DNA of 63,984 nucleotides from positions 1-63,984 of IMG/VR virus record IMGVR_UViG_3300007609_000018, one strand, 5' to 3'. The DNA is from a virus. The notes under the pieces are model-generated. The model did no database searches and was not told where the DNA came from. It saw nothing but the letters and a program-made list of their open reading frames with translations. A program made the translations under genes and the position numbers. Every line of letters begins with the position of its first letter. Position 1 is the stretch's first letter. Positions 35,088-52,602 of the stretch are shown here, piece by piece.

Positions 35088-35921
35088 CTAACTCAAACTC
35101 TGAAAAAAATGCTTAACAACTGTCACAGTCCATCCATTTCCTAAAAGGTTCTTTCTTATATTCTCACTATACCCTTTTGTATAGTCTTTTGGAATACCTT
35201 GCAATAACTCCCAATAACTACTGTTTGCCATATAAAATTCATTGTTTTTTTGGTAAAATATACTTGCAGATGTCGTTTGTCTATTTCCTGTTGATGTTAA
35301 TGTTGGTGCATTTTTCAATTCACTTAAATTATAAGGGTTAAAGAAGTTGGGTAATTTTTTAAACATAGATGTTTTTCTTTTAACAAAAGGAACAGGGTTT
35401 ACTTTATTAAATAATTCACTACTGAACTTAATTGGAATATTCTTTTTTTCATAATCTGTAAACGGTATATTAGTCCAGTAATACCTTGGTCTATTTTGCC
35501 CGGTAAAATACTTAGAGTTTATTTTTATTGGCTCAACACCTAATTTCTCGTTAATAATATTTAGCCATTCTTTTTTCATAGAAACATTTTCTAAAAAAAA
35601 ATATTTAGGTTTTAAAAATTCTTTTGCCTTTACAAACTCAAAAAACAACTTACTTCTTTTGTCGTAAAAATTTAATTGTTTACCAATACTACTAAACCCT
35701 TGACAGGGACTTCCACCTATTAATAAATCAATTTTTGGTAATTTATTTAATTTAGCAGAACAAACATCCCCCATTTGTTTGGTGCTTGGGTAATTTCTCA
35801 AAGTTACTTCTATCGCTTTTTTATCTATTTCATAAGCAAAATAATTATCTATTTTTATATTTAATTTGTCTAAAGCAATTTGCCCACAACTGATTCCATC
35901 AAAATAGCTTACTACATTCAT
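35088..35921 (-). CDS. DNA (cytosine-5) methyltransferase
   Basis: 277 residues. The catalytic motif IV GGSPCQGFS has its PCQ at residues 72-74. Motif VI ENV is at 111-113. Motif VIII is NRPRYYWTN, a shortened form of QxRxR. The C-terminal conserved GNGWTV is motif X-like. The target-recognition region is short (about 170-225). The N-terminus MNVVSYFDGISCGQIAL is the SAM-binding motif I. It is one of three DNA methyltransferases in the window, and no restriction endonuclease is adjacent. Likely role: late protective methylation of DNA to be packaged. Confidence 0.9.
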   Translation of the reverse strand: MNVVSYFDGISCGQIALDKLNIKIDNYFAYEIDKKAIEVTLRNYPSTKQMGDVCSAKLNKLPKIDLLIGGSPCQGFSSIGKQLNFYDKRSKLFFEFVKAKEFLKPKYFFLENVSMKKEWLNIINEKLGVEPIKINSKYFTGQNRPRYYWTNIPFTDYEKKNIPIKFSSELFNKVNPVPFVKRKTSMFKKLPNFFNPYNLSELKNAPTLTSTGNRQTTSASIFYQKNNEFYMANSSYWELLQGIPKDYTKGYSENIRKNLLGNGWTVTVVKHFFQSLS

Positions 35922-36203: not shown

Positions 36204-36428
36204 TCAACGCCTGGAAATATAAACAGTTTTTTCTACATTTACCCTATGTGATACACTACCATTAAACTTCGCTAAAGTGTCTTTTAAATCAATTTCTAAC
36301 ACCTTTTGTGTAGAACCTTGATACTTCCAACCCTTTAATCCTTTTCTTAGCCTTAAAGATGCAAATTTAACTTGCTTTCGCTGTTCAGCTTTCTTTACTA
36401 TCTCATCTTTTTGGTGGTTTTCAAACAT
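36204..36428 (-). CDS. Basic small protein, 74 aa
   Basis: Not recognised. Strongly basic with an RLRKGLKGWKYQGS core, suggesting nucleic-acid binding. It follows the HisRS-like gene after 6 nt in the same operon, so the two are probably co-expressed. A link with that enzyme (substrate or partner) is possible but unproven. Confidence 0.55.
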   Translation of the reverse strand: MFENHQKDEIVKKAEQRKQVKFASLRLRKGLKGWKYQGSTQKVLEIDLKDTLAKFNGSVSHRVNVEKTVYISRR

Positions 36429-36434
36429 AATATT

Positions 36435-37061
36435 TTATTTAACAGATAACAACCTATCAATTCCTATTGCAAACCCTACTCCTCCATCATACTCTCCTCC
36501 TCCACAAATCTGTTTTGAACTTCCTAATTTATCATAAACAATTTCAAAACCTTTACCATCTTTATAGTAGTCCAACCCCCTACTTACGTTTCTATTTACT
36601 TTAAAACCCTCTATTCCAAAATATTTAATCAAATCTATTGAAATAGAAATTAAATATTCCAAAAGATCGCTTTTTGGATTTATTACTTCAACACCTAATT
36701 GTGTAAATTGCCTATATCTTCCGGCTTGTGGCCTTTCCCCTCTAAAACATTCTTGAACATAAAATAAATTAACATCTTTTTCATACTTAAATTGAGTTTT
36801 TGATAATTTCTGAATAACAGATGTATATTCTGGTGCAAGACAAATATTTCTATTTCCTCTATCAGTAAAGTTAAACATTAAATTATTATTTTCTACACCC
36901 ACTTTATCTTCAAATATATCTTGCATTTGAATAATTGGTATTGATATTTCTTGAAACCCATGGCTTGTTAAATATGTAGCCATATCAGAAATTACACTTC
37001 TTTTCTCATTTCCTAAAAGTATTCTTGTTCCTTTGTAAGTTGTCTTTTTAATCTCTAACAT
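36435..37061 (-). CDS. Minimal histidyl-tRNA-synthetase-like enzyme (catalytic core only)
   Basis: About 208 residues, half the usual HisRS length. Visible class II motifs: YKGTRILL near residue 9 (HisRS KGTRDIL), LAPEYT at 75-80 (LRPEGT), motif 2 CFRGERPQAGRYRQF at 105-119, histidine-binding SRGLDYY at 160-166, GGGEYDGG at 187-194 and motif 3 GFAIGIDRLL at 196-205. The catalytic and histidine-binding residues are kept. The insertion domain and the C-terminal anticodon-binding domain are missing. It probably still activates histidine or a similar amino acid with ATP, but its acceptor may not be tRNA. Alternative reading: a HisZ-like regulator, though the intact active site argues against that. 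A TTG at 37070 is open, but ATG 37061 is preferred. It overlaps the upstream gene by 14 nt. Confidence 0.82.
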   Translation of the reverse strand: MLEIKKTTYKGTRILLGNEKRSVISDMATYLTSHGFQEISIPIIQMQDIFEDKVGVENNNLMFNFTDRGNRNICLAPEYTSVIQKLSKTQFKYEKDVNLFYVQECFRGERPQAGRYRQFTQLGVEVINPKSDLLEYLISISIDLIKYFGIEGFKVNRNVSRGLDYYKDGKGFEIVYDKLGSSKQICGGGEYDGGVGFAIGIDRLLSVK

Positions 37062-37482
37062 ATTTCTCAATTTCAGCTTGAATTTTCCTATTCATTTCAA
37101 TATCTGAATCGTGAAAACCTATTAATGCATCACGACTTCCTAATAACCTTACTTCATCTCTACGTAAAAGTTCATATAAATAGCTTATAAAGTCTTTGTC
37201 ATTACCCTTTATTTTAGCATTTGTAAAGTTTCTAATTCTTTTTTGAACATCAACACTATCATTAATAACAACAGACAAATTGCCTACATATTCAAACTTT
37301 TCAATAGGTTCTTCTGACGAATCTACTTTAGGTATAAACTTATAAGCTGCAATTAGAAACTCTAAGGCCTCGTTTTCATTTTTAGCAAATTTTTTATCTA
37401 CAAAACAAAATCTTTTCGTAACTAAATCATTAAACCTGTAACCCTCTTTTTCTAAACTATCAAACTGCCATACTGTTATCAT
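37048..37482 (-). CDS. Hypothetical protein coupled to HisRS-like gene, 144 aa
   Basis: Not recognised. Soluble alpha/beta protein starting MITVWQFDSLEKEGYRF with a charged helical C-terminus. Its stop lies 14 nt inside the HisRS-like gene, so the two proteins are probably made together and may interact. It could be the acceptor or a specificity subunit for that enzyme. This is inference from overlap alone. Confidence 0.55.
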   Translation of the reverse strand: MITVWQFDSLEKEGYRFNDLVTKRFCFVDKKFAKNENEALEFLIAAYKFIPKVDSSEEPIEKFEYVGNLSVVINDSVDVQKRIRNFTNAKIKGNDKDFISYLYELLRRDEVRLLGSRDALIGFHDSDIEMNRKIQAEIEKYVRD

Positions 37483-37702: not shown

Positions 37703-37888
37703 CTACAATTCTATTTTTATACTAACAACAATATGTGTGCTTGGCCATTCACTATCCTCACGTTCAATATGAACTTCACAATCATCAATCAATAAATCAT
37801 TTTCTTCCTCGAAATCTTTTATCAATCTTTCAATTTGGTTAGAAAGTTTTATTCTTTTTTTTCTTATTTCTTCTATTGTCTTAGACAT
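37703..37888 (-). CDS. Small coiled-coil protein, 61 aa
   Basis: A short helical N-terminus rich in K, R and E (MSKTIEEIRKKRIKLSNQIE) is followed by a beta strand pair ending VVSIKIEL. Not recognised. The frame is open from a TTG at 37894, but the ATG at 37888, which overlaps the GroES-like gene by 8 nt, is more likely. Confidence 0.5.
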   Translation of the reverse strand: MSKTIEEIRKKRIKLSNQIERLIKDFEEENDLLIDDCEVHIEREDSEWPSTHIVVSIKIEL

Positions 37889-38441
37889 ACTCAATTACCC
37901 CCACTATGTTATTCCTATTTACTCTAAAAACATCTGTATCACCCATTATCTCACTATGAGCAAATGGTACATCACAATCTACTTCCGTTGCTATATGCTG
38001 CCCTTTCTCAAACCCATATCCATCATACAAAACTTTAAACTGATTTTTCTTATACCCTGGCTTTAACTCTAACTCTGAAACTCTCTTCTCTTCTATCTTC
38101 TCACACAAAACATAATCATTTATAAACACCGTTTTTCCTTCTCGTTTAACAAAAAACAATGATTCTTTATGCAAGATCGCTTTACGCTTTCTATCTTCCC
38201 CAACAGAATATTTATAATCAATTATCCTATTCTCTTCCTTGGCCCGAATAGTCGCTAAATAATGAAAATAAACTTCATCCCCCTCTAATACTTCCGGATT
38301 ACCACTCTCTAAACAAATCCCCTTAATTGGCGCATACTTACATGGCTCATAACTCGTAGCAATGTAAATCCCAGAATCAGTTTTCATCTCATTCTCCGTA
38401 TCTACAAACTCAACCAATATGTTCTCGTGTAATAATTGCAT
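37881..38441 (-). CDS. GroES-like co-chaperonin, probably tandem domain
   Basis: 186 residues. The N-terminal half follows the Cpn10 pattern: ENILVEFVDTENEMKTDSGIYI, in which a tyrosine-isoleucine replaces the usual G-G-I-I-hydrophobic turn, then a mobile-loop-like stretch (TSYEPCKYAPI), then KGICLESG and EGDEVYFHYLAT. The second half (FINDYVLCEKIEE to NNIVGVIEYV) looks like a second, divergent copy. Phage GroES replacements such as T4 gp31 let host GroEL fold large capsid proteins. It is the first gene of the late operon after the non-coding region, which fits expression before the capsid proteins. Fold assignment is by eye. Confidence 0.5.
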   Translation of the reverse strand: MQLLHENILVEFVDTENEMKTDSGIYIATSYEPCKYAPIKGICLESGNPEVLEGDEVYFHYLATIRAKEENRIIDYKYSVGEDRKRKAILHKESLFFVKREGKTVFINDYVLCEKIEEKRVSELELKPGYKKNQFKVLYDGYGFEKGQHIATEVDCDVPFAHSEIMGDTDVFRVNRNNIVGVIEYV

Positions 38442-51271: not shown

Positions 51272-51499
51272 CTATTTAATTTTGTTCTTAAAATAACGCT
51301 CTAAGGCGATTGAAATAATAAACCCTATACCAAATATGCCTAAGTGTATAATAACCTCTCTAAACTTAATTAAAGTGCCAAATACATGGTAAGAAGTGTT
51401 TGCTGCAATTACAATAAATATCTGTACTGCAAATAATACCTTGAATATCTTGCATACTAAATATTTTTGAGTGTAATATTCTATCTGTTCTGGTTTCAT
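51272..51499 (-). CDS. Two-TM membrane protein, 75 aa
   Basis: Two hydrophobic helices (about residues 16-35 and 50-66) joined by a short loop, with a basic C-terminus (ERYFKNKIK). No family recognised. It overlaps the methyltransferase upstream as ATGA. A small inner-membrane protein amid replication genes could anchor the replisome or exclude other phages; neither is supported beyond position. Confidence 0.55.
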   Translation of the reverse strand: MKPEQIEYYTQKYLVCKIFKVLFAVQIFIVIAANTSYHVFGTLIKFREVIIHLGIFGIGFIISIALERYFKNKIK

Positions 51500-52602
51500 A
51501 ACTTTAGTTTTTTAATTATTTTTGCTAATACGTTTACAACTATACTATTACCTGCTTGTATATACATTTGAGTATTGCTACAAGGTATTTTGAATGTATC
51601 TGGAAAGTCCATTAGTCTGAAACACTCTCTTGGTGTTAATCTTCTCACCTTGTTTTCTATTAAATACTGTCCTGCTTTATCATTGCAATTTCCACCACTT
51701 CCCATAAGTGTCCTGCCAATTGTTGTAGAGCTGTAAATCCTTCTACTAAAATCGTTATATTTTTCATTAGGCAACATACCGATAACTTTTAATTCAATTG
51801 AATTGTCAGTAGGGCATAATGCACCATTTGCTCTTAAAGCATTTGCAACATCATCTTCTGTTTTAGGTTGCCATTTAAACCCAGTTCCTTTTTTTTCGTG
51901 TCGGTCTTTATGATTTATAAATCCTTTTATCAATGTTTCACTCAAAAAATACTTTTCATCAACATCATCTTCTAAAACATCTTTTAGTCTTTTTGTTAAT
52001 GGAAATGGTTTTGGAAAGCTAAAGACATTATCCTTATCATCACGTATTCCAATTATAAACACTCGTTCTCGGTTTTGTGGAACTCCATAGTCTTTTGCAT
52101 TTAAAACTCTATGGTATATATGATATGGTACTGAATCTTCTCTCGGAAATATTATAGGATTTCCATTTACACTCTTTCCGCCTAACATATCTATCCACGT
52201 ATTAAAAGTTTTACCATAAGTAGCGTTCTTGTATTTCTTGTTATCTGAAAGCAATCCTTTTACGTTCTCAAATATGAAAAATCTTGGTTTGTTTACTTTT
52301 ATAAATTCGTGGCTATTGTAAAACAATATTCCTCTTTTATCATCTTCTCCACCACGTTTACCGGCTAAACTGAAACTTTGACATGGAGGCGATGTAACGT
52401 ATATATCTAAAGGTTTGGCAGGAATTTCTCTGTCATAAACATTCAAAGGATAGTATGCAGGCTCTCCATAATTTTCTATATATGTCTGTCGTGCATACTT
52501 ATCCATATCACAAGCAAAAATTGTTTTAAACTTTATGCCTAATCTCATCAATGCTTGTTCAAATGCCCCTACTCCAGAAAAATCACTACCTACTTCAATC
52601 AT
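51496..52602 (-). CDS. DNA (cytosine-5) methyltransferase, second
   Basis: 368 residues. Motif I is FSGVGAFEQAL near the start; motif IV is SPPCQSFSLAGKRGG with PCQ at 73-75; motif VI ENV is at 112-114; motif VIII is QNRERVFIIGI; motif X is GNSIVVNVLAKII at the C-terminus. It is longer than the 35,088 enzyme and its target-recognition region (about 230-320) is different, so it probably methylates another site. It is coupled to its neighbours and, by operon, expressed early. Confidence 0.92.
   Translation of the reverse strand: MIEVGSDFSGVGAFEQALMRLGIKFKTIFACDMDKYARQTYIENYGEPAYYPLNVYDREIPAKPLDIYVTSPPCQSFSLAGKRGGEDDKRGILFYNSHEFIKVNKPRFFIFENVKGLLSDNKKYKNATYGKTFNTWIDMLGGKSVNGNPIIFPREDSVPYHIYHRVLNAKDYGVPQNRERVFIIGIRDDKDNVFSFPKPFPLTKRLKDVLEDDVDEKYFLSETLIKGFINHKDRHEKKGTGFKWQPKTEDDVANALRANGALCPTDNSIELKVIGMLPNEKYNDFSRRIYSSTTIGRTLMGSGGNCNDKAGQYLIENKVRRLTPRECFRLMDFPDTFKIPCSNTQMYIQAGNSIVVNVLAKIIKKLKL

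Follow-up and report, generated by a model that had tools for sequence, protein, structure and literature searches.

Within a 63,984-base stretch of viral DNA (hereafter the window), a 208-aa protein with the active site of a histidyl-tRNA synthetase (HisRS) is encoded on the minus strand at positions 36435–37061, which raises the question of what so short an enzyme, termed here mini-HisRS, could do for a phage. The initial annotation, made from the sequence alone, proposed that it probably forms histidyl-adenylate but should not charge a normal tRNA, the acceptor being perhaps a protein, a phage product or a truncated tRNA. The evidence presented below points instead to a working, naturally minimal HisRS that recognises tRNA-His by the acceptor end and charges it, a reading that is considered probable.

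The catalytic core of mini-HisRS

The mini-HisRS open reading frame (ORF) is complete, begins with ATG and is read in a single frame; an alternative TTG start 9 nt upstream would yield 211 aa. Its start is overlapped by 14 nt (37048–37061) by the 3' end of a 144-aa ORF (P144; 37048–37482, minus strand), and a basic 74-aa ORF (36204–36428, minus strand) begins 6 nt after its end, an arrangement that agrees in each particular with the initial annotation. Mini-HisRS matched the NCBIfam hisS profile (E=3.9e-41, 141.4 bits, below the NCBI equivalog cut-off of 286.75 bits) and Pfam tRNA-synt_His (E=6.8e-19), E-values that discount a chance match.

The class II motifs 1 to 3 and the HisA and HisB active-site residues, features of membership of the HisRS family, are all present on the minus strand. 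The motif 1 region, GFQEISIPIIQ (36927–36959, residues 35–45), contains P42, which is invariant in subgroup A1 and conserved at more than 90% in A2. Motif 2, FRGERPQAGRYRQFTQLGVE (36687–36746, residues 106–125), carries the canonical RPQxGR loop, and its residues R107, E109, R115, Q121 and E125 are invariant in 38 sequences, as are R161, G162, Y165 and Y166 of the HisA motif RGLDYY (36564–36581, residues 161–166), which corresponds to R259–Y264 of the Escherichia coli enzyme. The HisB motif CGGGEYDGG (36480–36506, residues 186–194) is followed by motif 3, GFAIGIDRL (36450–36476, residues 196–204), the arginine of which, assigned by eye from the alignment as R203, is conserved at more than 90%. 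Residues E83, T85, R113, R121, Q127, E131, R259, Y264 and Y288 of E. coli HisRS correspond to E78, T80, R107, R115, Q121, E125, R161, Y166 and Y191 of mini-HisRS. All histidine- and ATP-binding residues of the E. coli enzyme that could be checked are therefore kept, and they are invariant or nearly so across 38 relatives. The earlier claim that a full set of HisRS motifs is contained in only 208 residues was borne out for every catalytic residue checked, and the intact active site lends support, at the level of sequence, to the predicted formation of histidyl-adenylate.

An AlphaFold2 model of mini-HisRS had a mean pLDDT of 88.6, and its residues 6–208 superposed on residues 3–316 of Thermus thermophilus HisRS (1adj) with 201 of 208 residues aligned and a Z score of 23.3. 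PylRS and HisZ also match the model, because the fold is common to them. HisZ (TIGR00443) shares with mini-HisRS a HisRS core without an anticodon domain (Z about 21), and mini-HisRS might on this basis lack catalysis and serve a partner enzyme as a histidine sensor or regulatory subunit. The NCBIfam HisZ model gives it 89.9 bits (below the equivalog cut-off of 271.65 bits) and one bacterial relative is annotated by NCBI as 'ATP phosphoribosyltransferase regulatory subunit'; however, the hisS score is the higher of the two, all of the activation residues are invariant, and several of the bacteria bearing mini-HisRS possess in addition a HisZ-like gene of normal length. A regulatory role of this kind is very unlikely.

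Comparison of the window gene with its relative in locus L041 yielded a dN/dS of about 0.14; for the other pairs that include the window gene dS was saturated, with pN/pS between 0.15 and 0.26. Given the hisS match, the kept residues, the fit of the model and the dN/dS, mini-HisRS of the window is a real gene under purifying selection. Decayed copies do exist in the family, on a P. caribensis plasmid (L233) and as a truncated gene (L064), but the intact ORF, low dN/dS and invariant active site make it extremely improbable that the window gene is itself a relic or in decay.

Full-length HisRS (TIGR00442, class IIa) shares with mini-HisRS motifs 1 to 3, HisA, HisB, the active-site residues and the core fold, but is about 420 aa in length and contains an insertion domain and a C-terminal HGTP anticodon-binding domain, both of which mini-HisRS lacks. 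Absence of the anticodon-binding domain, recognised in the initial annotation, was confirmed: no match to Pfam HGTP_anticodon was found in the protein or anywhere in the window. Loss of the insertion domain, which had gone unremarked, is an addition. In comparison with the solved E. coli structure, residues 27–131 of mini-HisRS match 28–136 and residues 146–195 match 244–291; since the alignment passes directly from about residue 136 of the E. coli enzyme to residue 244, the insertion domain of about 100 residues between motif 2 and HisA is missing. All of the sequence evidence agrees with function as a HisRS, but with two defining domains absent and the equivalog cut-off not reached, mini-HisRS is not a standard member of the HisRS family. 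The loss of both domains should lower affinity and specificity for tRNA.

Relatives, neighbouring genes and the window phage

Relatives of mini-HisRS were found in the phage genomes LR756502 (642 kb) and LR745206 (635 kb), in Sinorhizobium phage Phosso (469 kb) and at 49 IMG/VR loci, many of them on contigs of 250–608 kb. Nearly all complete copies are of about 200–220 aa and end at or just after motif 3, a pattern into which the window gene fits. A scan of bacterial genomes recovered the short form in Pseudomonas, Paraburkholderia, Chromobacterium, Thalassospira and Azospirillum (chromosomal or plasmid loci L131–L144, L146 and L232), and a full-length HisRS was also present in all six of the mini-HisRS-bearing genomes checked. 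The description of the enzyme as phage-encoded thus holds for many huge phages, but not exclusively, since proteobacterial genomes carry it too.

In a tree of 68 sequences, from which HisZ rows dropped out, all 53 mini-HisRS sequences fell on one side of a single branch (support 100/98) and the 15 full-length HisRS on the other; the family is monophyletic against full-length HisRS. One group, clade A, consists of phage sequences and holds the window; the other comprises the phage sequences of clade B and the bacterial copies. The closest sequence to that of the window is L040, at 78% identity. An unshifted relative is also carried by the 1.17 Mb plasmid pPL1 of Pseudomonas silesiensis (L234). 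In L064 (7959–8540) the gene ends after about residue 147, with a tRNA-Tyr gene directly after it and a tRNA-His gene before it; the shortening is possibly the result of an insertion into the mini-HisRS gene.

The initial annotation had coupled mini-HisRS to P144 and had named an intact anticodon domain in a neighbouring gene of close relatives as an observation that would refute its reading; the search made for one did not refute it. No HGTP anticodon domain for histidine was encoded as a separate gene in seven phage records, two of 635–642 kb among them; the sole HGTP match, in Phosso, belongs to a threonyl-tRNA synthetase about 400 kb away and was rejected as an anticodon partner. P144 was absent from six relatives searched as whole records, and its only relative in the viral collection was in L040, where a 79-aa ORF matches its C-terminal 65 aa (residues 80–144) at 55% identity and overlaps the L040 mini-HisRS by 14 nt, as in the window. 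The structure model of P144 was poor (pLDDT 54.7), and none of the loci examined contained a relative of the 74-aa ORF. P144 is a local feature rather than a general partner of the family, and the proposed coupling is weak.

These observations bear on the idea of a split synthetase, in which tRNA would be charged only with an anticodon- or tRNA-binding protein supplied in trans: in the window by P144 or the 74-aa protein, and by others elsewhere. The tight gene overlap in the window and the basic character of the 74-aa protein would suit such an arrangement; neither neighbour recurs across the family, however, and the whole phage genomes contain no HGTP anticodon gene for histidine, so that a split enzyme is quite unlikely.

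The window phage is not one of the huge phages. Its large terminase subunit (TerL) and portal protein resemble those of 60–76 kb podophages of Bacteroidota (Cellulophaga phi13:2, the Flavobacterium elemo phages and MW202828), a match that speaks against the window as a piece of a huge phage genome. It could be a nearly complete phage genome, and no terminal repeat was found in it. The window TerL was absent from 18 records with mini-HisRS, among which there was no positive control, and a search of viral contigs with back-translated TerL gave no match. A primase, DnaB helicase, RecT and YqaJ-type recombinase are encoded. Upstream of mini-HisRS, in the same gene run, lies a gene (37881–38441, minus strand) for a GroES-like (Cpn10) domain with an additional segment fused at its C-terminus. 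The phage also encodes two C-5 cytosine DNA methylases, at 35088–35921 and 51496–52602 (minus strand), and a relative of the first also occurs near mini-HisRS in L045.

tRNA-His and proposed recognition of the acceptor end

Of 32 non-redundant loci that contain tRNA genes, 11 have the gene for tRNA-His as the one nearest mini-HisRS. Shuffling tRNA identities within loci gave an expectation of 2.9, and none of 20,000 draws reached 11. The gap between the two genes is only 9–18 nt in L044, L064, L073, L077 and L086. HisRS identifies tRNA-His chiefly by the G-1:C73 pair at the acceptor end, and microhelices of 8 bp are charged by HisRS (PMC9976931). Most of the phage tRNA-His genes carry this pair: it was called by script in at least 19 of 36, a lower bound because mismatches in the acceptor stem of several tRNAs defeat the automatic call of N73, and more were recognised by eye. 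A tRNA-His that lacks G-1 and has U72 and A73, the type read by alphaproteobacterial HisRS (PMC9976931), occurs in L070 (7372–7447), L073 (8692–8764), L078 (7267–7342) and L084 (7290–7363); in the last three of these it is a second tRNA-His beside one with G-1:C73.

Laboratory-made HisRS urzymes, which lack both the insertion and the anticodon domain, activate histidine and charge tRNA-His (PMC4082485). Taken with the G-1:C73 identity and the linkage to tRNA-His genes, this counters the view that mini-HisRS should not charge a normal tRNA. The urzymes and Ncat fragments resemble mini-HisRS in having a core without an anticodon domain, but are constructs, whereas mini-HisRS is natural, under selection and possesses a full core (about 205 aa) with HisA and HisB, as against 122 residues in the starting urzyme fragment (PMC4082485). 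A HisRS that occurs naturally in this reduced form would make the question of the minimal synthetase testable on an enzyme kept by evolution.

Under the favoured reading, mini-HisRS would form His-AMP from histidine and ATP, as its intact active-site residues imply, and would then transfer histidine to the 3' end of tRNA-His, selected by G-1:C73 and the motif 2 loop with the anticodon left unread. The likely purpose is to keep histidyl-tRNA supplied during infection by an enzyme largely independent of the host HisRS. Relatives in huge phages probably act on the tRNA-His that the phage itself encodes. Synthetases and tRNAs of huge phages have been described, with the proposal that such phage-borne translation genes serve to charge phage tRNAs (Al-Shayeb et al. 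2020, PMC7162821); the main text of that study mentions neither histidine nor a minimal HisRS, and its phages are huge whereas that of the window is of about 64 kb.

For the window phage the substrate would be the tRNA-His of the host, because the window holds no tRNA gene. ARAGORN found no tRNA gene, truncated tRNA or tRNA-like acceptor in it and there was no Rfam match to E=1, so that the truncated tRNA once suggested as acceptor was not found there; nor was any tRNA seen in the short records of the closest relatives, L040 and L043. The histidine content of the window proteome is low (1.14%). With no tRNA and a histidine-poor proteome there is no obvious demand for His-tRNA in this phage, and the use of host tRNA-His is the weakest step of the proposal as it applies to the window.

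It might be argued, from the missing anticodon and insertion domains, the lack of a tRNA gene in the window phage and the overlap of a partner ORF with mini-HisRS in both the window and L040, that the core makes His-AMP but hands on the histidine (or AMP) to a small molecule or to a protein, P144 for example, in the manner of synthetase paralogues without tRNA charging. P144 cannot, however, be the acceptor for the family because it is absent from nearly all relatives, and both the linkage of the family to tRNA-His genes and the His-codon control site of the sister branch described below count against an acceptor other than tRNA. This alternative is unlikely.

The tRNA-His of Phosso carries G-1:C73, though the host of this phage, Sinorhizobium, is an alphaproteobacterium. 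The HisRS/tRNA-His pairs of E. coli and Caulobacter are orthogonal (PMC3875453), and by analogy the mini-HisRS/tRNA-His pair of Phosso may be orthogonal to the HisRS of its host. So small a synthetase, encoded next to its own tRNA and reading nothing but the acceptor end, would be a ready-made tool for engineering of the genetic code.

Two other features of the tRNA genes were observed. The acceptor stems of tRNA-His in several huge phages contain one or two U:U mismatches, e.g. GTGATTG/CTTTCAC (L005:4436–4511, L006:7274–7347, L057:723–795 and L058:87–160). Genes for tRNAs with a CTA anticodon, called tRNA-Pyl by ARAGORN, lie near mini-HisRS in L002 (3416–3488), L066 (301–455) and L077 (12367–12523), and TAG may serve as a sense codon in these phages.

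A candidate +1 frameshift site in the sister branch

The window gene and all of its relatives in clade A are read in one uninterrupted frame, without the cassette found in clade B and the bacterial copies. In this sister branch the 0-frame ORF, typically MLRGTRxLxGDEA...LRGxLH, stops after 28–38 codons and the remainder of the protein, from FIEAGFEEVILP on, lies in the +1 frame. The junction consists of (C/G)TT followed by a histidine codon, CAT or CAC, in all 34 loci tabulated (for example L007:4044–4138, L073:7910–8003, L077:7910–8003 and L132:2910–3006, and 30 others), and is situated at codon 28 in 32 of them. These loci are related and do not represent 34 independent events. The cassette is also present in the plasmid copy L232, whereas no (C/G)TT-CAY junction was found in the unshifted relatives L065, L068, L076, L085 and L130; at least four changes of the trait are needed on the tree.

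The histidine codon is constant while the codon that follows it varies (TGA in 20 loci, CGA in 11, and CGC, AGC and TAA in one each), a stop following directly in only 21 of the 34. TTCA at the junction is 100% conserved in 30 non-redundant sequences, including what would be the wobble base of the +1-frame phenylalanine codon; elsewhere in the same genes phenylalanine is encoded by TTC 77 times and by TTT 45 times. In 29 of 34 loci the hexamer that lies 3 nt ahead of the slip codon contains a Shine-Dalgarno (SD)-like GGAG, GGGG or GAGG, which coding may explain in part, because the stretch overlaps a conserved arginine codon. A shift at the upstream arginine codon in place of (C/G)UU is disfavoured on the evidence of L079, in which TAG occurs in the +1 frame between the two.

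The junction of the sister branch resembles the +1 autoregulatory site of release factor 2 (RF2, prfB): in both, a 0-frame ORF of only about 28 codons leads to (C/G)UU, often with an SD-like stretch at a distance of 3 nt, and a slow codon then enters the A site. This codon is UGA in RF2 and the histidine codon CAU or CAC in the sister branch. The use of UGA as the slow A-site codon in this same layout is established for RF2 (PMC5009743). On the simplest model, a low supply of His-tRNA would cause the ribosome to stall at CAY, the P-site tRNA would slip from (C/G)UU to UUC, and full-length synthetase would be made. The arrangement suggests that expression of mini-HisRS in the sister branch is controlled by the supply of His-tRNA. 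The site also constitutes evidence on function, because an enzyme made in response to His-tRNA is likely to make His-tRNA.

A fuller proposal may be assembled from these elements: that the natural, urzyme-like mini-HisRS charges tRNA-His through the G-1:C73 end alone, that in the huge phages of alphaproteobacteria it forms with its tRNA a pair orthogonal to the host HisRS, and that one branch, which includes the chromosomal copies of Pseudomonas and Paraburkholderia, is controlled by +1 frameshifting at a hungry histidine codon as RF2 is at UGA. As a combination this is advanced tentatively, as possible rather than probable. Nothing relevant to frameshifting of a HisRS or to a phage mini-HisRS was found among open-licence papers. 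The frameshift, if true, would be a rare programmed use of hungry-codon slippage, the natural use of which a review of frameshifting left unclear (PMC5009743). Existing annotation has overlooked the putative frameshift: NCBI gave one bacterial copy the regulatory-subunit name noted above, and in Phosso the gene was started at an internal methionine.
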